The translations under genes and the position numbers were made by a program. From contig NZ_JAUETR010000001.1 of NCBI RefSeq assembly GCF_032484785.1, positions 5,087,501 through 5,151,500 of the forward strand: 64,000 nucleotides of DNA, written 5' to 3'. Position 1 is the stretch's first letter; every line of letters begins with the position of its first letter. Below the pieces are notes generated by a model. It was not told where the DNA came from, did no database searches, and was given only the letters and a program-made list of their open reading frames with translations. Positions 48,934 to 56,600 of this stretch are shown in pieces. The stretch comes from Bradyrhizobium sp. SZCCHNS1050 (GTDB taxonomy: Bacteria > Pseudomonadota > Alphaproteobacteria > Rhizobiales > Xanthobacteraceae).

Positions 48934-49713
48934 TCACGGCCGCACCGCCGGCGCCTCCACCGGCATCCCTTGCGCCCGGGACATCAGATACAGCTCCAGC
49001 GCGATCATGTCGGGGGCGTCGAAATCGTAGGCCTGGGCGCGCACCCCGGTCATGCAGCCGCGCAGGCGGCGCTGCAGCGAGCCCATGCCTTGCCATTCCA
49101 GCCGGTAGATCGGATAGCCCGTCGGCTGTCCCTGCGTGATCGCGGAGCCGGCGAGATGCTTGCTCCAATTGTCATCGTGACAATTGGTGCAGGCGAGATT
49201 GAGCTGGCCCTGCCGCTGAAAAAACAGCTCGCGACCGCGCGCGATGAAGGGCTTGAGCCGCGGATCGTCGCCAGCGGTGATCGGCATCCCGCGCGATTGC
49301 TTCGCGATCAGCGCCGTCAGTGCCAGCAGCTCGCGGCTCTCTGCTGCGAACGGCGCTGCCTCCTGATGCTGTTTGCGGCAGAGATTGACGCGCTGGCCGA
49401 GATCGACCGGCGCACCGCTGGTGGCATTGAAGGCGGGATAGCGCGCGGCGACGCCCTTCATGCTGACATCGACCGGGCCATGACAATCGCCGCACGCCTT
49501 GTTGGCCGTGCCTGCCTTCGTCGTCCACAGCGCCTCACCGTCGAGCACCGACAGCATCGCCGGATTGGCGGTGTCGTCGTCCTGCATCGCCCTGGTGTCC
49601 GACGACATGAAGTCATAGCCGGAGCGGCGCTCGGACTCTGCGATCTCGCCGGCAAGCACGGGCAAGGTCACGACGATTGCCGTGACGACAGTGAGAAACG
49701 CAGACCGCATCAT
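48934..49713 (-). CDS. soxA: SoxA, diheme cytochrome c subunit of SoxAX
   Basis: 259 residues with a Sec signal (RSAFLTVVTAIVVTLPVLAG). The SoxA landmarks are all present: MQDDDTANPAMLSVLDGEAL, heme sites CGDCH (74-78) and CTNCH (175-179), and the catalytic Cys220 in RLRGCMTGVRAQAYD. SoxAX joins a thiosulfate sulfane sulfur to the SoxY carrier Cys, releasing two electrons. The start overlaps the soxZ stop (ATGA). It is last in the minus-strand operon, and no soxB or soxCD follows. Confidence 0.95.
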   Translation of the reverse strand: MMRSAFLTVVTAIVVTLPVLAGEIAESERRSGYDFMSSDTRAMQDDDTANPAMLSVLDGEALWTTKAGTANKACGDCHGPVDVSMKGVAARYPAFNATSGAPVDLGQRVNLCRKQHQEAAPFAAESRELLALTALIAKQSRGMPITAGDDPRLKPFIARGRELFFQRQGQLNLACTNCHDDNWSKHLAGSAITQGQPTGYPIYRLEWQGMGSLQRRLRGCMTGVRAQAYDFDAPDMIALELYLMSRAQGMPVEAPAVRP

Positions 49714-50030
49714 TCGATCGTGATCGCGGCGGCGGTGGTGGCGACGAACCCGTTGTCGCCGATCCATTCGAACTCGAAGCGGCCGCTCTCGGTAGCCGTG
49801 GTGAAGAACGACAGGAACGGATTGGCGGCGATGGCCGGATAGAGGTCGGCGCGAAAGATCTCGGTGCCGTTGAAGCGGCAGGTGAAGCTGGTGATGATGT
49901 CGCGCGGGATGGCTTCGCCTGCGGCCGTATGGCGATAGCCCGGCTCCATGACGTGGCTCATCAGTGTCTTGATCTCGATGACGGCGCCGCGCTTGGCCTT
50001 GGCGGGAACGTTGACGAGGGCGGCAGGCAT
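49710..50030 (-). CDS. soxZ: SoxZ, sulfur carrier partner
   Basis: 106 residues. An Ig-like fold with KRGAVIEIKTLMSHVMEPGY, FTCRFNGTEIFRADLYPAIA and NPFLSFFTTATESGRFEFEW identifies SoxZ. It pairs with SoxY to carry sulfur intermediates in the periplasm. The ATG at 50030 overlaps the SoxY TGA stop by one base; a GTG just before it is the alternative. No signal peptide, as is usual: it is exported with SoxY. Confidence 0.95.
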   Translation of the reverse strand: MPAALVNVPAKAKRGAVIEIKTLMSHVMEPGYRHTAAGEAIPRDIITSFTCRFNGTEIFRADLYPAIAANPFLSFFTTATESGRFEFEWIGDNGFVATTAAAITIE

Positions 50031-50518
50031 CACGGCATCTCCTCGGTGCAGGCGGCCAAGGTCACGATGACGTCGACGCTCGCCGACCAGAACGAGCCGT
50101 CGGAGAGCTTTGCGATCGCCACGACCTTCTGGGTGTCGGCGAGCCGGATGCGCGTCGTGACCTGGGCGCGGCCGGCGCTGGCTGTCAGGTGAAAGCTGGC
50201 GACGTTGGGCTGCGGGTTCTTCTCGTTGAAGACGTGGATGCTCTTGACGAAATCGTCAGGCGTCATCGGGTGATCGACGCTGACGGTCATCGGCACGGTG
50301 TTGCCGTTCTCGACCAGCGGCGGGATGTCGAGTCGGATCTTGCCGGCGTTCACCTTTGCCTCGCCGACGAGGTTGCGGATCGCGGACGCCAGCATCGCCG
50401 GGGTCGCCTGCGCAGGCCGGACCGTGATCAGCGGCAGTGCGCCCGCGGCGGTCAGCGTTCCCGCCAGTTGCAGCAGGTGGCGGCGGGACATGTGGGACGG
50501 TTCGAACATGCCGGTCAT
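50030..50518 (-). CDS. soxY: SoxY, sulfur carrier with unusual C-terminus
   Basis: 162 residues. A Tat signal starts HMSRRHLLQLAGTLTAAGA and ends near AQATPAM. The SoxY domain follows (NLVGEAKVNAGKIRLDIPPL, VDHPMTPDDFVKSIHVFNEK). In SoxY the last residues should read Gly-Gly-Cys-Gly-Gly, the swinging arm that carries sulfur. Here the end is VTLAACTEEMP: a Cys is kept, but the glycine arm is replaced and five residues follow it. It remains close to SoxX (six-base gap) and SoxZ (overlap). Starts at 50518, 50509 and 50491 are possible. Confidence 0.9.
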   Translation of the reverse strand: MTGMFEPSHMSRRHLLQLAGTLTAAGALPLITVRPAQATPAMLASAIRNLVGEAKVNAGKIRLDIPPLVENGNTVPMTVSVDHPMTPDDFVKSIHVFNEKNPQPNVASFHLTASAGRAQVTTRIRLADTQKVVAIAKLSDGSFWSASVDVIVTLAACTEEMP

Positions 50519-50524
50519 ATGGGC

Positions 50525-50968
50525 TCACTCGCGCAAGGTCGCGAGATAGGCGACGATGTCTTCGATCTGCTCTGCCGACAGGATCGGCTTGCCGCGCCAG
50601 GCGGAACCGACGCGCGTCAGCCCGTCAATGCGATAATAGGACGGCATGATCGTTTCCGGATTGAGCCTGGAGGCATCGACCAGCCGCAAGCGGAGCTGCG
50701 GGATCGTCGAACGGCTGCCGGCCCCGGCAAGGCTGGGTGCGAGATCGCCCTGGAAGTGCGCTTCCGGAAACGGGCCGGAGTGACAGAGGATGCAGGTCGA
50801 GCTGCGCGCGACGACGAGTGCGCGGCCGCGGGTGGCGTCGCCGGGCCGTCCGGTGAGGGACGAGGCGATGCCGTCGCCGGTGATCGTAGCGGGCGCGAGT
50901 GTCTGCGCCGCGACAGCGGCGGGCAGGGCGGCCACGAGCGCGGCGATGACAAGGCTAGCCGAAGGCAT
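50525..50968 (-). CDS. soxX: SoxX, monoheme cytochrome c subunit of SoxAX
   Basis: 147 residues with a Sec signal (SLVIAALVAALPAAVA). One heme site CILCH (59-63) lies in RSSTCILCHSGPF. The family blocks GDLAPSLAGAGSR, SRLNPETIMPSYYR with the distal Met, and LSAEQIEDIVAYLATL are present. It forms the SoxAX complex with SoxA, encoded three genes downstream. Its start overlaps the end of the flavoprotein gene by 14 bases, which supports one transcript. Confidence 0.94.
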   Translation of the reverse strand: MPSASLVIAALVAALPAAVAAQTLAPATITGDGIASSLTGRPGDATRGRALVVARSSTCILCHSGPFPEAHFQGDLAPSLAGAGSRSTIPQLRLRLVDASRLNPETIMPSYYRIDGLTRVGSAWRGKPILSAEQIEDIVAYLATLRE

Positions 50969-52238
50969 CGTGGGTCAGCGCCTTGAACCAGGCCGTCGCC
51001 GCGGCGGCCTCACGCGCGCGCGTCTCGCGCGATGCGTCGACCGGGCTGGCCCGTCCGCCCTCGATCTCGGCGAAGATGTCTCCCTTGGGCTGGTAGATGC
51101 CGGCGAGCGAGAACGCGTCGTCCGGCGCGACGATGCTGTAACAGATGCCGGTCAGCGTCGGCGGCTCCGACCGCCGTCCCGTCAGATCGCGCACGATCAC
51201 GGCCGCGCACGCCTTGCCCTGCGCCTGGGCGGCGCCGGCCGATTTCGGGATGCCGCCGCCGAGACAGGCGTCGCCGATGACATGGACGTCGGGGACGAGC
51301 TTCGAGGCGAAGGTCGCGGCATCGATCGGGCACCAGCCGGTGCGGTCGGCCGCGCCGGCGAGGGCGGCAATGCGGCCGGCCTTCTGCGGCGGGATGATGT
51401 TGGTCACATCGGGATTGTAATTGCCGAACTCGGTGACGACGGTACGCGTGGCGATCTCGACGCCGGTGACGCGGCCGCCCTGCGACAGCGGAATGCGCTC
51501 GATCATGCCGGGGTAGAGCTGCTGCCACGCCTGCTCGAACAGCTTCTGCTGCGAGAAGCTGTCCTTGGCATCGAGGATCAGCACCTTCGACTTCGGCTTG
51601 TGCGCCTTGAGATAATGCGCGATCAGGCTGGCGCGTTCGTAAGGCGCGGGCGGACAGCGCGACGGATTGGCCGGGACGGCGATCGCGACGGTGCCGCCAT
51701 CCGGCATCGCCTCGATCTGCGTCCGCAGCAGCAGCGTCTGCTCGCCGGCCTTGTAGGCGTGCGGCATGACCGCGGAGGCGGCCTCGTCGTAGCCTTGCAG
51801 GGCCGTGAAATCGAGGTCGATGCCGGGCGCCAGCACGAGGCGGTCATAGGCCAGCGCGCTGCCGTCGGCGAACGTGACCTTGTGGGCGGGCGCATCGACC
51901 GCCGTGGCCGCCCGCAGCACAATGCTCACGCCTTCGGCTGCGATCTTGTCATAGCCGAACTGCTGGGCACTGATATCGCGCAGGCTAGCGATGACCTCGT
52001 TGCTGAGCGGACACGCCGTGAAGGTCGTGTTGGCCTCGACCAGGGTGACGTCGAGCTTGCCATCGGCTTGGCGCAGCGCGCGGGCGCAACTGGCGCCGCC
52101 GAAGCCGCCGCCGATCACGACGACGCGCGCCATCGCTTGTGCGCGCAGCACGGCAGGGGCGGCGATCATGGCAACTGACGCCGCGATCAGGCCGCCGACC
52201 TCTCTGCGCGTGCGCTGCCGGGACATCGTCATCATCAT
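50955..52238 (-). CDS. soxF: SoxF-like flavocytochrome c sulfide dehydrogenase, flavoprotein subunit
   Basis: 427 residues. A Tat signal starts RQRTRREVGGLIAASVAMIA. The FAD site is ARVVVIGGGFGGASCARALR. Key cysteines match flavocytochrome c: the FAD-linking Cys in FTACPLSNEVIAS, and two redox cysteines in SRCPPAPYERAS and LTGICYSIVAPDD. It should oxidise sulfide or polysulfide and pass electrons to a cytochrome c. No dedicated cytochrome subunit is adjacent, except SoxX and SoxA. An ATG at 52226 is also possible. The frame is open further upstream inside the Mo-hydroxylase gene, but it is not coding there. Confidence 0.9.
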   Translation of the reverse strand: MMMTMSRQRTRREVGGLIAASVAMIAAPAVLRAQAMARVVVIGGGFGGASCARALRQADGKLDVTLVEANTTFTACPLSNEVIASLRDISAQQFGYDKIAAEGVSIVLRAATAVDAPAHKVTFADGSALAYDRLVLAPGIDLDFTALQGYDEAASAVMPHAYKAGEQTLLLRTQIEAMPDGGTVAIAVPANPSRCPPAPYERASLIAHYLKAHKPKSKVLILDAKDSFSQQKLFEQAWQQLYPGMIERIPLSQGGRVTGVEIATRTVVTEFGNYNPDVTNIIPPQKAGRIAALAGAADRTGWCPIDAATFASKLVPDVHVIGDACLGGGIPKSAGAAQAQGKACAAVIVRDLTGRRSEPPTLTGICYSIVAPDDAFSLAGIYQPKGDIFAEIEGGRASPVDASRETRAREAAAATAWFKALTHDAFG

Positions 52239-52288
52239 TGCAATAGCACGGCGGCGGCCATTGGTCCCAACGGCCGCCGCCACGCGGG

Positions 52289-54472
52289 TCATGCGAAGGT
52301 GATGTTCTGGTCGCGCAGTGGCAACGAGCGGATGCGCTTCCCGGTGGCGGCAAAATACGCATTCAGCACGGCGGGTGCGGCGACGCCGATGGTCGGCTCG
52401 CCGACGCCGCCCCAGAAGCCGCCGCTCGGGATCATGATCGCTTCCACCTTCGGCATCTCGGCGATGCGCATCGAGTTGTAGCTGTCGAAGTTGGTCTCGA
52501 CGATCCGTCCGTCCTTCACGGTGCAGCCGCCGTAGAACAGCGCCGAGAGGCCGTAGACGAACGAGCCGGCGATCTGCCGCTCCACCTGCGCCGGGTTGAC
52601 GACGTAGCCGGGATCGGTCGAGGCGACGATGCGGTGGATCTTGATCTTTCTGCCGTCGATCACCGAGATCTCGGCAGCACCCGCGACGTAGCTGCCATAG
52701 CCGTGCAGTTGAGCGAGGCCACGGGACACGCCGTCCGGCGCCGGCGTGCCCCAGCCGATCTTCTCCGCGACAGCGTTGAGCACCGCGAGATGCTTGGGAT
52801 GATCGGCCATCAGCTTGCGGCGGAAGTCCAGCGGATCCTGGCCGGCCGCATCGGCGAGCTCGTCCATGAAGCATTCGAGATAGATCGCGTTCTGGTTCAC
52901 GTTGACGCCGCGCCAGAAGCCCGGATTGATGTGCGGGTTGCGCATCGCGTGTTCGATCAGCAAATTCGGCACGGAGTAGCCGATCGTGGCTTCGCCCGAT
53001 GGTGCGAGCCCCTGGAAGGTCGCGGGGTCCTTGCCGTTGACCAGCGCGTCGGGCCGCAGGCTGAACAGGATCGACTGGCCGGAGATGCGCATGTGCAGTG
53101 CCGTCAGATTGTTGTCGGCGTCGAAGCCGCCGGTCAGCTTGCACTGCGTGATCGGGTGATAGCGGCCATGGGTCATGTCCTCCTCGCGCGACCACAACAG
53201 CTTGATCGGCGTGCCCGGCATCTCCTTGGCGATCTTCACCGCCTGGCGGACATAGTCGGTCTGGCCGCGCCGGCCGAAGCCGCCGCCGAGGATCAGCTTG
53301 TGCACCTCGCATTTGTCGGCGGGCAGCCCTGAGGCTTCCAGAACCGCGGCGAACGCCGCCTCGCCGTTCTGCGTGCCGCACCACACCTCGCATCGCTCGG
53401 GCGTGTAGAGCGCCGTGGCGTTCATCGGCTCCATCGTGGCGTGGTTCTGATAGGGATAGTTGTAGACGGCCTCGACCTTCCTGACGGCGCTCGCCAGCGC
53501 CGCCTTGGCGTCGCCGTTCTCGTTGCCGACAAAGGCGGGGCCGGACTCCAATCCTTCCGCGAGCCATTTGGCGATCGAGGCCGAGGAGACCTTGGCGTTC
53601 TCGCCTTCGTCCCACACGATCGGCAGCGCATCGAGCGCCGTCTTCGCGTGCCACCAGGTGTCGGCGACCACGGCCACGGCGGTGCCATCGATCGCGACCA
53701 CCTTCTTGACGCCCTTCATGCCGGCGATCTTGGCCTCGTCATAGCTCTTCAGCTTGCCGCCGGTGACCGGACAGTCCTTGATCGCGGCGTTGAGCATGTT
53801 CGGCAGCTTCATGTCGGCGCCGTAGATCATCGCGCCGGTGACCTTGTCGGCGGTGTCGAGCCGTCTCACGCCCTTGCCGATCAGGGTCCAGTCCTTCGGA
53901 TCCTTCAGCTTGACGTCGGCAGGCGGCGTCAGCTTCGCGGCGGCTTCCGCCACCTTGCCGTAGGTCGTCGTGCGGCCCGACGCCTTGTGGGTGATGACGC
54001 TGTTGGCGGCGGTGCATTCGGCCGCCGGAACCTTCCATTCGTCGGCGGCCGCCTGGATCAGCATCATGCGCGCGGCGGCACCGCCCTTGCGGACGTAGTC
54101 CTGCGACGAGCGGATGCCGCGGCTGCCGCCGGTGGAGAAATCGCCCCACACGCGCTTGCGGGCGACGTTCTGGCCGGGCGTCGGATATTCGGTCGTGACC
54201 TTGCTCCAGTCGCAGGCAAGCTCCTCCGCGACGAGCTGGGCGAGCCCGGTCAGCGAGCCCTGGCCCATTTCCGAGCGGGCGATGCGGATCACCACGGTGT
54301 CGTCGGGCCGGACGACGACCCATGCATTGACCTCGGGTGAGCCATCGGCTGCGCGCACCACCTGCGGGCCGCCGAAGGGGATATCGAGGCCGAGGGCGAG
54401 GCCGCCGCCGAGTGCGGCGGTGCCGATGACGAAGGACCGGCGGTCGAGGCGCGGCGTCACATGCTGGTTCAT
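52289..54472 (-). CDS. Exported molybdenum hydroxylase large subunit (IorB/CoxL-like)
   Basis: 727 residues. A Tat signal (LDRRSFVIGTAALGGGLALG) shows export. The molybdopterin-binding xanthine dehydrogenase family features are ARSEMGQGSLTGLAQLVAEE, YNYPYQNHATMEPMNATALY, GGGFGRRGQTDYVRQAVKIA and the late GFWGGVGEPTIGVAAPAVLN with the catalytic Glu. It pairs with the [2Fe-2S] gene 10 bases upstream; there is no FAD subunit, as in isoquinoline 1-oxidoreductase or aldehyde dehydrogenases using cytochrome c. Substrate unknown. The ATG at 54472 follows GAGGAGGACGGC. The flavoprotein gene follows after 50 bases. Confidence 0.92.
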   Translation of the reverse strand: MNQHVTPRLDRRSFVIGTAALGGGLALGLDIPFGGPQVVRAADGSPEVNAWVVVRPDDTVVIRIARSEMGQGSLTGLAQLVAEELACDWSKVTTEYPTPGQNVARKRVWGDFSTGGSRGIRSSQDYVRKGGAAARMMLIQAAADEWKVPAAECTAANSVITHKASGRTTTYGKVAEAAAKLTPPADVKLKDPKDWTLIGKGVRRLDTADKVTGAMIYGADMKLPNMLNAAIKDCPVTGGKLKSYDEAKIAGMKGVKKVVAIDGTAVAVVADTWWHAKTALDALPIVWDEGENAKVSSASIAKWLAEGLESGPAFVGNENGDAKAALASAVRKVEAVYNYPYQNHATMEPMNATALYTPERCEVWCGTQNGEAAFAAVLEASGLPADKCEVHKLILGGGFGRRGQTDYVRQAVKIAKEMPGTPIKLLWSREEDMTHGRYHPITQCKLTGGFDADNNLTALHMRISGQSILFSLRPDALVNGKDPATFQGLAPSGEATIGYSVPNLLIEHAMRNPHINPGFWRGVNVNQNAIYLECFMDELADAAGQDPLDFRRKLMADHPKHLAVLNAVAEKIGWGTPAPDGVSRGLAQLHGYGSYVAGAAEISVIDGRKIKIHRIVASTDPGYVVNPAQVERQIAGSFVYGLSALFYGGCTVKDGRIVETNFDSYNSMRIAEMPKVEAIMIPSGGFWGGVGEPTIGVAAPAVLNAYFAATGKRIRSLPLRDQNITFA

Positions 54473-54482
54473 GCCGTCCTCC

Positions 54483-54932
54483 TCAGGCGTTGGCCGCGGC
54501 GTGGATCGCCTCGCGCACCTGCGCGAAGGTTCCACAGCGGCAGATGTTGGTGATGGCGTCGTTGATGTCCTGATCGCTCGGCTTCGGATTGTCCTTGAGC
54601 AGTGCCGCGACGGCCATGATCATGCCGCTCTGGCAGTAGCCGCATTGCGGAACGTCGTTCTCCACCCAGGCCTGCTGCACCTTGTGCAGCCCGTTGTCGC
54701 TCGCGAGCCCCTCGATGGTGGTGATCTGCTTGCCCTGGGCCTCGGAGACGGTGACGCCACAGGAGCGCACGGCCGCGCCGTCGAGATGCACGGTGCAGGC
54801 GCCGCATTGTGCAATGCCGCAGCCATATTTGGTGCCGGTCAGTCCGGCATTCTCGCGGATCGCCCACAGCAGCGGCGTGTCGGGCTCGACGTCCAGAGTA
54901 TAGGATTGTCCGTTGATCGTGAGGTTTGCCAT
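54483..54932 (-). CDS. [2Fe-2S] small subunit of the molybdenum hydroxylase
   Basis: 149 residues. The plant-type [2Fe-2S] cluster uses [16 protein letters not shown] with a later Cys, and the second cluster uses QCGYCQSGM and ICRCGT. These are the standard CoxS/IorA patterns. It has no signal peptide and is probably carried through the Tat pathway by the large subunit. The ATG at 54932 has AAAGGGATC upstream. It is the first gene of the putative seven-gene operon down to soxA, with a perfect dyad just upstream. Confidence 0.93.
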
Positions 54933-55069: not shown

Positions 55070-56470
55070 TCATGGGCCGCGCGGCGGAGCTACGGCAAGC
55101 CGCAGAAAGCTCATCACGCTGCCCAGCGCGGCGAAACCTGCGCCGAGGGCCAAGGCAAGGGTGGCTCCGTCGTGCCCCGCAAGGCTGAAGCACAAGGCGG
55201 CCAGCGCCGCGCCGGTGGTCTGACCGGTCAACCGGGCCGTGGCGACGATGCCGCTGGCGCCGCCGCTGCGATGGGGCGGGGCGCTTGACATGATGGCCTT
55301 CATGTTCGGCGCCTGGAAGAAGCCGAACCCGATGCCGCAGATCAGCATGCGCCAGACGATGTTGGCGATGCTCGGGTTCTCGGGCAGCATGGCGAGCAGC
55401 GCCATGCCGGATCCGAGCATCACCAGGCCGATGCCGCCGAGCAGGCCGGCGGGAAAACGGTCCGACAGCCGCCCGGCGATCGGGGCCATGATCGTGACCG
55501 CGAGCGGCCAGGGTGTCATGAAGAACCCGGTCTCGACCTGCGAACGCTGGAGAATGTCCTCGAAATAGAACGGCAGCGACACGAAGCCGAGGCCCTGCAC
55601 CGAGAAGGAGCAAACCGCGGTCGCCGCCGACAGCGCGAAAACCCCGCGGCGGAACAGATCGATCGGCAGCATCGGCGCCGGGTGATCGGCCTGGCGGCGG
55701 GTCAGGATGACGCCGAGCACGAGCGCGCCGACAAGCTCTGCCACCACCATGGCCGGCGTCGCGCCATGCGCGGCGCTGCCGATGCCGGTGATGAACAGGC
55801 CGAGGCAGAGCGCAGCGAGCCCGGCGCCGAGAAAGTCGAAGCCATGCTCGGCGCGCGGCGTGCGCGGCAGCATCTTCATGCCGATCGCGATGGCGATCAG
55901 GCCGAAGGGGAGGTTGATCGCAAACAGCCAAGGCCAGGAGCCGAGCGAGAGAATGGCGGACGCAATGGTCGGGCCGAAGGTGAAGGAGATGCCGACCACG
56001 AGCGCATTGTGGCCGAGGCCGCGGCCGAGCATTTTTCCAGGATAGACGTAGCGCACCAGCGCGGTGTTGACGCTCATGATGCCGCTGGCGCCGAGGCCCT
56101 GCAACGCGCGGGCAACGACCAGGGTCGGCAGCGACCACGCCAGCGCGCAGCCGACCGAGGCCAGCGTGAACAGCAGGAGGCCGCCGAGATAGATGCGCTG
56201 ATGGCCGACGATCTCGCCGAGCGCGCCGAGCGGCAGCAAGGTCGCCACCAGCGCGATCTGGTAGATGTTGACCACCCAGACCACCTCGGCCGGGGAGACG
56301 TGGAGATCGGCCGAGATCGACGGCAGCGCGATGTTGGCGATGGCGACGTCGAGCGAGGCCATCGACAGCGCGGTGAAGATCGCCGCGATCGCCCAGGGAC
56401 GCTGGCCCGGCGGTAGGCCGTCGGCGGTGCCGTCGCCGGCGAGCCTCGAAGCGTGGTGGCGGTTGGACAT
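55070..56470 (-). CDS. MFS transporter, DHA2 (14-helix) type
   Basis: 466 residues with about 14 membrane helices. MASLDVAIANIALPSISADL with WVVNIYQIALVATLLPLGAL is the DHA2-type motif region, and GALGEIVGHQRIYLGGLLLF carries the motif A loop. ALQGLGASGIMSVNTALVRY is the motif B/C area. It probably exports drugs or metabolites by proton antiport. The ATG at 56470 is followed by a hydrophilic N-terminus. It is co-directional with bioR but 130 bases after it. Confidence 0.88.
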   Translation of the reverse strand: MSNRHHASRLAGDGTADGLPPGQRPWAIAAIFTALSMASLDVAIANIALPSISADLHVSPAEVVWVVNIYQIALVATLLPLGALGEIVGHQRIYLGGLLLFTLASVGCALAWSLPTLVVARALQGLGASGIMSVNTALVRYVYPGKMLGRGLGHNALVVGISFTFGPTIASAILSLGSWPWLFAINLPFGLIAIAIGMKMLPRTPRAEHGFDFLGAGLAALCLGLFITGIGSAAHGATPAMVVAELVGALVLGVILTRRQADHPAPMLPIDLFRRGVFALSAATAVCSFSVQGLGFVSLPFYFEDILQRSQVETGFFMTPWPLAVTIMAPIAGRLSDRFPAGLLGGIGLVMLGSGMALLAMLPENPSIANIVWRMLICGIGFGFFQAPNMKAIMSSAPPHRSGGASGIVATARLTGQTTGAALAALCFSLAGHDGATLALALGAGFAALGSVMSFLRLAVAPPRGP

Positions 56471-56600
56471 GGAGACCTTTGGAGACCTTCGGTTCGCGGG
56501 GCGCGTCCGGATCAGCATGTACACGGGAGCAGGCGAGCGCCCCAGCCGTCGCGGGCGCATGGCGGTATGCGCCCGGTCGCAAGGAACGGGTTGAAGCCGG

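Follow-up and report, generated by a model that had tools for sequence, protein, structure and literature searches.

Seven closely packed genes on the minus strand of a 64,000-nucleotide stretch of the Bradyrhizobium sp. SZCCHNS1050 genome (contig NZ_JAUETR010000001.1; the whole stretch is called the window below) form an operon that is a widespread, SoxB-independent variant of the Sox system, with a molybdenum (Mo) hydroxylase as its regular partner. Operons of this kind occur in numerous bacteria from soil, freshwater and the sea, genomes lacking SoxB included, and probably serve an oxidation other than that of the usual pathway. The operon occupies positions 54932-48934 of the window. The original prediction, made from the window alone, had listed a [2Fe-2S] subunit, a Mo hydroxylase, a flavoprotein resembling flavocytochrome c sulfide dehydrogenase (FCSD), SoxX, SoxY, SoxZ and SoxA, in this order and with tight junctions, and had pointed out that SoxB and SoxCD were missing. 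Coordinates and family scans bear out the layout, each of the names is backed by the scans, and neither SoxB nor SoxCD is encoded in the window operon. Between the [2Fe-2S] subunit and SoxA, the successive junctions are a 10-nt gap, a 50-nt gap, a 14-nt overlap, a 6-nt gap, a 1-nt overlap and a 4-nt overlap.

Composition of the operon

The [2Fe-2S] subunit (54932-54483, 149 aa) scores 100 bits against Fer2_2 (cut-off 30.3) and 41 bits against Fer2, and is followed by the Mo hydroxylase subunit (54472-52289, 727 aa; MoCoBD_1, 109 bits; MoCoBD_2, 98 bits; cut-off 27). The latter belongs to the xanthine dehydrogenase family, IorB/aldehyde dehydrogenase type, and its N-terminus, judged by eye, carries a twin-arginine translocation (Tat)-like RRSFVIG. 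The nearest solved sequence is chain C of 8gy3, an aldehyde dehydrogenase large subunit (246 bits). The MoCoBD domains, the separate [2Fe-2S] subunit and the glutamate retained in GVGEP place the enzyme among the Mo hydroxylases, and the domains together with the 8gy3 match support the predicted type, that of xanthine dehydrogenase and IorAB rather than of sulfite oxidase. A carbon monoxide dehydrogenase-like enzyme was rejected, with 43.7 and 57 bits against cut-offs of 991 and 950. The [2Fe-2S] subunit would be exported together with the Tat-type Mo subunit. In its two MoCoBD domains, [2Fe-2S] subunit, Tat-like signal and lack of a flavin adenine dinucleotide subunit in the operon, the enzyme resembles IorAB and the aldehyde dehydrogenase of 8gy3, which presumably comes from Gluconobacter and presumably has a cytochrome subunit; unlike these, the window enzyme has Sox proteins beside it.

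The flavoprotein (52238-50955, 427 aa) has the FCSD_central (PF21706, 158 bits, cut-off 27) and FCSD-flav_bind (PF09242, 72 bits) domains and matches 5n1t chain A with 427 bits. Two cysteines that we take to be catalytic in FCSD are present in SRCPPAPYERA and TGWCPID. No gene for an FCSD cytochrome subunit was found, as only SoxX and SoxA carry CxxCH within the window operon; at three relatives' loci (L056, L224 and L225), a reading frame with CxxCH or an annotated cytochrome adjoins the FCSD gene.

The monoheme cytochrome SoxX (50968-50525, 147 aa, one CxxCH) scores 73.7 bits against TIGR04485 (cut-off 61) and matches 1h31 chain B with 84 bits. The diheme cytochrome SoxA (49713-48934, 259 aa; TIGR04484, 229 bits, cut-off 110) matches 1h31 chain A, a diheme SoxA of known structure (178 bits), and the alignment pairs both CxxCH motifs and the cysteine of RGC. 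The operon thus has the SoxXA pair, with the catalytic cysteine of SoxA, of a Sox system. Between them lie SoxY (50518-50030, 162 aa), a paralogue discussed below, and SoxZ (50030-49710, 106 aa; TIGR04490, 81.2 bits, cut-off 76; PF08770, 91 bits).

Conservation of the operon among relatives

We searched 60 genomes of the genus and 398 genomes of the phylum, and also scanned named genomes by SoxY similarity, keeping the best 80 of 554 confirmed loci. In this last set SoxY and its arm were selected for, and the Mo gene was not. The SoxY family model TIGR04487 is over its cut-off in 47 of the 60 genus genomes. All 47 have an orthologue of the Mo gene (at least 79% identity; in two pieces in G016), as do two of the 13 genomes without this SoxY. 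In the phylum sample, 15 genomes are over the cut-off and five more, at 158-171 bits, are of the same kind by arm and neighbourhood; all 20 carry the Mo hydroxylase (at least 61% identity), on the contig of SoxY and no more than 5 kb away from it.

The 80 named loci span Henriciella, Hyphomonas, Methylobacterium, Microvirga, Enterovirga, Afipia, Bradyrhizobium, Polynucleobacter, Zwartia, metagenome-assembled genomes (MAGs) of Rokubacteria, and others, and the same gene order is seen in Alpha- and Betaproteobacteria. Among the families searched, the Mo gene stands directly before FCSD or SoxX at 73 of the 80 loci; of the seven without Mo upstream, six are contig ends and one is a deletion in Polynucleobacter. 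SoxA is present at 78 loci and FCSD at 57, the 23 loci without FCSD being 21 betaproteobacterial ones, one cut contig and one MAG of Rhodospirillaceae. The two SoxA misses are a contig end and L136, a 20-kb stretch of a Hyphomicrobiales MAG with the full operon order otherwise. The operon also occurs on plasmids of Neorhizobium galegae and Methylobacterium, and in Roseomonas FCSD has been relocated behind SoxA. On the N. galegae plasmid pNgVX (L223, 4719-6873), the match to Mo is split in two, in a stretch for which no gene is listed. A match on an Indioceanicola plasmid has a GGCGG arm and stands next to SoxB, SoxC and SoxD instead. A 31% SoxC match in Afipia sp. 64-13 (L091) is the sole one across the 80 loci, and at L095 and L096 a second, more distant pair of [2Fe-2S] and Mo genes lies in the same stretch as the operon pair.

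In trees, the Mo and SoxY proteins of the operon each belong to a single clade. In a quick Mo tree of 80 of the 123 Mo rows, with at most four from each large group, the Sox-linked Mo subunits, with some stand-alone copies nested within, form one group of 64 rows (Shimodaira-Hasegawa-like approximate likelihood ratio support, SH-aLRT, 97). In a SoxY tree of a thinned set of 66 rows, only five of them GGCGG SoxY, all 60 SoxY with an Ala-Cys arm share one side of a branch that has 100/100 support. Within the genus, the Mo subunit is 39-43% identical to the next IorB-type paralogues, save for a 72% copy in G031, which has a second [2Fe-2S]-Mo pair. Evolutionary distances, calculated without stand-alone copies, paralogues and canonical clusters, correlate between Mo and SoxX, SoxY, SoxZ and SoxA with r of 0.70-0.75 (528-595 taxon-label pairs), and between the [2Fe-2S] and Mo subunits with r of 0.77; some correlation between Mo and Sox distances would be expected from common descent alone.

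Mo hydroxylase-like genes are abundant in Bradyrhizobium, with 37 first-look candidates for this family in the window genome, and a sox paralogue set could therefore have come to lie next to one of them by chance. Since the same order is kept at most of the named loci and on the Methylobacterium plasmid, and the Sox-linked Mo enzymes form one clade, we give this explanation practically no weight and reject it on order conservation and the Mo and SoxY trees. The same observations uphold the idea in the original prediction that the Mo enzyme is a regular member of a variant periplasmic set.

The SoxY arm

A point overlooked in the original prediction is that the C-terminal arm of the window SoxY reads TLAACTEEMP (50033-50062, minus strand), which in the alignment with GGCGG SoxY replaces GGCGG. 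The protein is a member of the NCBIfam family TIGR04487, "SoxY-related AACIE arm protein" (244 bits, cut-off 172), and stays under the cut-off of the true GGCGG SoxY model TIGR04488 (115.8 bits against 125). It does not belong to the fused SoxY-SoxZ of quinoprotein type (TIGR04557), as it scores 63 bits against a cut-off of 140 and its gene is separate from soxZ. The family model covers SoxY only, and the window arm reads AACTE where the family name has AACIE. The arm cysteine aligns with the cysteine of solved SoxY. In all 106 operon-type SoxY, the C-terminus consists of x-Ala-Cys and a tail of 3-6 residues, and the Ala-Cys arm is found at all 80 named loci; Hyphomonadaceae-type, G440 and Roseomonas members score 155-171 bits, under the TIGR04487 cut-off. 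A twin-arginine-like N-terminus was seen by eye, while the Pfam TAT model gives 20.6 bits, under its cut-off of 22.7. Public records already annotate this SoxY type with the TIGR04487 name, and a search of open-licence literature found no paper using the AACIE-arm family name.

Another divergent SoxY, ending in TNGCK, occurs in the same genus (G275; L153, 6340-8735) with SoxZ-like, weakly SoxX-like and FCSD-like genes; the gene beside it is, as we presume from its letters, groEL-like.

SoxB and the canonical sox clusters

The original prediction allowed that soxB and soxCD might be encoded elsewhere and serve this SoxXYZA, and a genome search did find them. The 7.62-Mb host genome has two SoxB over the cut-off and four SoxY. 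At one locus (L008) the soxXYZABCD-type cluster is complete and includes a GGCGG SoxY and a SoxC of 655 bits; its SoxD is named from position and one CxxCH, the family search giving no match at the limit used. The second (L009) consists of soxXYZA, one small gene and then soxB, again with a GGCGG SoxY, and the third (L010) encodes a fused SoxYZ-like carrier of quinoprotein type (280 bits). As both soxB clusters have a GGCGG SoxY and SoxXZA of their own, the window set is a separate further paralogue, and a need of the window set for the host SoxB and SoxCD is made less likely by this and by the existence of SoxB-free relatives. A 2010 paper on the sox loci of B. japonicum reportedly counted four. 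In B. diazoefficiens, soxY1 of locus I, of the two soxY named, is given as essential for thiosulfate oxidation (PMC5748708).

No soxB was found in the fetched flanks of the 80 named loci. We tested the genomes of 46 of these loci for SoxB, a set that excludes the named Bradyrhizobium and Polynucleobacter loci and some betaproteobacterial MAGs: SoxB is over the cut-off in 21 and in none of the remaining 25 (12 isolates and 13 MAGs). A separate search for SoxB and SoxY covered 18 genomes, overlapping in part with the 46. In four of them, rated 100% complete, SoxB gives no match at E 1e-3, and the only SoxY is of the Ala-Cys kind; these genomes are Hyphomonadaceae-type and group with Hyphomonadaceae in the Mo tree. 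The other 14, including Polynucleobacter-type genomes, have SoxB.

In the accepted scheme, the sulfonate is removed by SoxB, with the caution, given in the same paper, that no proposed Sox reaction has been demonstrated directly (PMC5336275). In the genomes without SoxB, thiosulfate should therefore not be oxidised to sulfate along the known route, unless another hydrolase, SoxH-like, substitutes.

Proposed function

We propose, with a probability of about 40%, that the seven genes encode one functional unit, a paralogous SoxB-independent Sox system in which a periplasmic Mo hydroxylase partner would carry out carbon oxidation of a SoxY-linked thiol. As the SoxXA hemes and the cysteines of SoxA and SoxY are kept, the system seems still able to couple a thiol to SoxY. 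SoxXA would attach a thiol (an organic R-SH, or else sulfide) oxidatively to the cysteine of SoxY; the Mo hydroxylase would oxidise the thiol's carbon part, either while it is tethered or immediately before it is loaded; electrons would pass from the Mo enzyme through the [2Fe-2S] subunit to c-type cytochromes, perhaps SoxXA; and the FCSD flavoprotein, where present, would oxidise left-over sulfane or sulfide. Thiosulfate is an unlikely substrate, because its sulfonate would not be hydrolysable without SoxB. A carbon-centred oxidation is expected from the Mo subunit being nearest to an aldehyde dehydrogenase, and sulfur chemistry from the FCSD cysteine pair being kept. The more specific version, in which the Ala-Cys-arm SoxYZ is a periplasmic carrier of carbon compounds, SoxXA loads it with an organic thiol and the Mo enzyme hydroxylates the tethered carbon, is less likely than not.

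The persistence of parts of the operon bears on how tightly they are coupled. An arrangement that we consider fairly unlikely is a loose partnership, in which the Mo enzyme oxidises a free small molecule (an aldehyde or heterocycle, perhaps sulfur-containing) with SoxXA as electron acceptor, and SoxYZ and FCSD merely clear sulfide released from the substrate. The aldehyde dehydrogenase as nearest solved relative agrees with it, and so do G197, G037, G042 and G357, which are among the genomes that depart from the usual set and count against our proposal. G197 has [2Fe-2S]-Mo-SoxX-SoxA without FCSD (L164, 7349-11416), and no SoxY was found anywhere in this one-contig genome. G037 (81%) and G042 (79%) retain the [2Fe-2S] and Mo genes alone, without Sox genes. 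G245 and G357 have them without this SoxY and on branches of 0.63 and 0.70, long beside the median of 0.1; in G357 a cytochrome c reading frame adjoins them. Conversely, Polynucleobacter sp. AP-Melu-500A-A1 (L090, 9375-11552) has lost Mo and keeps a 33-residue [2Fe-2S] remnant directly before SoxXYZA. The retention of [2Fe-2S]-Mo without Sox genes argues against strict dependence and tight coupling. Such exceptions are few, however. In the family of G197, this Mo enzyme is found in 67 of 75 genomes, and 29 of the 30 loci that matched best show FCSD after Mo. Of ten longer stretches, nine carry the complete order and Ala-Cys arms, and the remaining one holds a second [2Fe-2S]-Mo-FCSD copy. Moreover, SoxY and SoxZ are both present at 80 of the 80 named loci, though these were SoxY-selected. 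The exceptions look like later losses, but parts can persist alone. Second [2Fe-2S]-Mo copies also occur in the Polynucleobacter-type genomes G350 and G439.

We consider it unlikely that the route is inorganic, with FCSD and SoxXA loading sulfide or sulfane on SoxY, the Mo enzyme replacing SoxCD as sulfane dehydrogenase, and release being spontaneous or due to a hydrolase encoded elsewhere (SoxB or SoxH-like). Such a route would fit the strongly FCSD-like flavoprotein, the normal SoxXA and the position of a Mo enzyme where SoxCD would act. It would also fit the presence of SoxB somewhere in 59 of the 60 genus genomes, where a role in trans is therefore possible, and the report of SoxH as a replacement for SoxB in a Sulfurimonas (PMC11237559). 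Against it, the Mo enzyme is of a C-H hydroxylating family and not of the sulfite-oxidase type, FCSD was not found at 23 of the 80 loci, and SoxB over the cut-off is missing in 25 of the 46 genomes.

In a further scenario, cofactor maintenance, the Sox proteins would provide the sulfane sulfur with which the exported Mo cofactor regains its terminal sulfido ligand. This would account both for a sulfur carrier being paired with a Mo hydroxylase and for the missing SoxB and SoxCD; we regard it as very improbable. With 37 candidates of the Mo family and four SoxY in the host, most of the former cannot have an adjoining SoxY, and the [2Fe-2S] and Mo genes persist alone in some genomes. Sulfuration of the Mo cofactor is normally cytoplasmic and carried out by XdhC-type proteins, and an XdhC gene lies downstream of the operon in a Hyphomonas-type genome. 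There (L056, 9473-16086), the operon is followed by genes for a LysR-type helix-turn-helix regulator, an XdhC/MobA fusion, TauE, MoaC and MoeA; XdhC/MobA and the Mo cofactor genes in this place fit a Mo enzyme at the centre of the system.

Further points weigh against carbon oxidation of a SoxY-linked thiol. At 55 positions the conserved residues of the Sox-linked Mo subunits differ from those of the paralogues, and all three sister copies that lie outside the clade agree with them at 38 of these, which makes them no mark of adaptation to a carrier. The FCSD distances fit less well than those of the other proteins (r of 0.50 with Mo and 0.31 with the [2Fe-2S] subunit). No enzyme of product release was recognised, and we know of no xanthine-oxidase-family enzyme that acts on a protein-bound substrate.

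The hairpin between the Mo and FCSD genes

The 50-nt gap holds a hairpin with an 18-bp stem and a 4-nt loop (52246-52285, minus strand, found by folding), which starts 3 nt after the Mo stop codon. The 76-nt fold of the region has -37.6 kcal/mol (z -4.0), and none of 200 shuffles was as stable. Stems of 9 bp or more occur no further than 75 nt behind the Mo stop at 47 of 72 loci with FCSD downstream, and at 23 of 24 in Bradyrhizobium, the window counted. By the same measure, control stretches give 6/102 after SoxA and 8/106 after SoxX; these controls differ in kind, as many of the post-SoxX stretches are coding, and some of the hits in other taxa may be coding too. In many relatives the stem letters differ and the position is about equal.

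The original prediction held that a terminator or promoter setting the Mo gene apart in transcription would speak against a single set. On this point the result is mixed: the hairpin does lie in the gap, while the terminator scan of the window listed nothing there and no T-run follows the hairpin. Some of the relatives' hairpins have T-rich tails. The promoter scan gave two sites against 0.8 expected, both on the opposite strand. The hairpin suggests that [2Fe-2S]-Mo and FCSD-SoxXYZA may be unevenly expressed, and could be a partial terminator, a processing site or a stabiliser of the mRNA.

Flanking genes

A major facilitator superfamily (MFS) transporter gene lies upstream (55070-56560, minus strand; PF07690); it is EmrB/DHA2-like, with 203 bits against TIGR00711, under the cut-off of 230. 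Matches at L062, L063, L067, L068 and L069 make it a neighbour in several Bradyrhizobium, and it is outside the conserved core. In G037 (L150, 4990-9170) a gene that by eye resembles the MFS transporter of the window still adjoins the [2Fe-2S] and Mo genes after the Sox genes have gone.

We grouped flanking genes or frames found under at least four of 40 taxon labels, a threshold that a partner in fewer labels could escape. Of the 37 resulting clusters, 28 lie mostly on core genes, many of them being shadow frames. The other nine are a branched-chain amino acid ATP-binding cassette (ABC) ATPase (9 labels), a short-chain dehydrogenase (4 labels) and seven mainly from the Polynucleobacter group, where penicillin amidase, formyltransferase and aminotransferase are included; the MFS transporter is not among these nine. 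No steady further partner gene was found among the 37 clusters at this threshold.

Relation to known systems and significance

The operon shares the SoxXA and SoxYZ homologues, the hemes and the cysteines of SoxA and SoxY with the thiosulfate-oxidizing Sox system of Paracoccus pantotrophus, and differs from it in lacking SoxB and SoxCD, in having an Ala-Cys arm instead of GGCGG and in the added xanthine-oxidase-family Mo enzyme. A cluster of four genes in Polynucleobacter QLW-P1DMWA-1, Pnuc_1154-Pnuc_1157, one of three sox clusters described there, likely is a SoxXYZA of the window type (PMC3308952, 2012). That paper draws it beside Bradyrhizobium japonicum and gives some sox genes as common with Alphaproteobacteria; its main text has no word starting with "molybd" and no soxB, and a link to a Mo enzyme or independence of SoxB was not seen there. 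The quinoprotein-associated fused SoxYZ (TIGR04557) and the divergent SoxY of symbionts (PMC11237559) are similar in being carriers that adjoin carbon oxidation enzymes. That paper argues that divergent SoxY and SoxYZ-like carriers act in carbon metabolism. The TIGR04557 carriers differ in that SoxY and SoxZ are fused and no SoxXA is mentioned beside them, and the parts of PMC11237559 considered here contain no description of the AACIE type. No paper on the Mo hydroxylase link or on the SoxB-free genomes was found in the open-licence literature. Thus, the SoxY family name and, likely, the Polynucleobacter cluster were already known, while the link to the Mo hydroxylase and the SoxB-free genomes appear to be new.

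If our proposal is true, soxXYZA is a misleading marker of thiosulfate oxidation in a large group of bacteria, comprising 47 of the 60 genus genomes, four Polynucleobacter-type genomes of the 398, and Hyphomonadaceae in which no SoxB was found. If SoxYZ is indeed a carrier of carbon compounds, the operon would represent a Sox pathway that uses neither SoxB nor thiosulfate and releases no sulfate, with a Mo hydroxylase acting on a protein-bound substrate. The SoxB-free Henriciella- and Hyphomonas-type bacteria, with a single SoxY in the four tested, would allow the chemistry of SoxXA and SoxYZ to be studied apart from the thiosulfate pathway, and it would become possible to test whether SoxYZ-like carriers are linked to carbon oxidation, as has been proposed.

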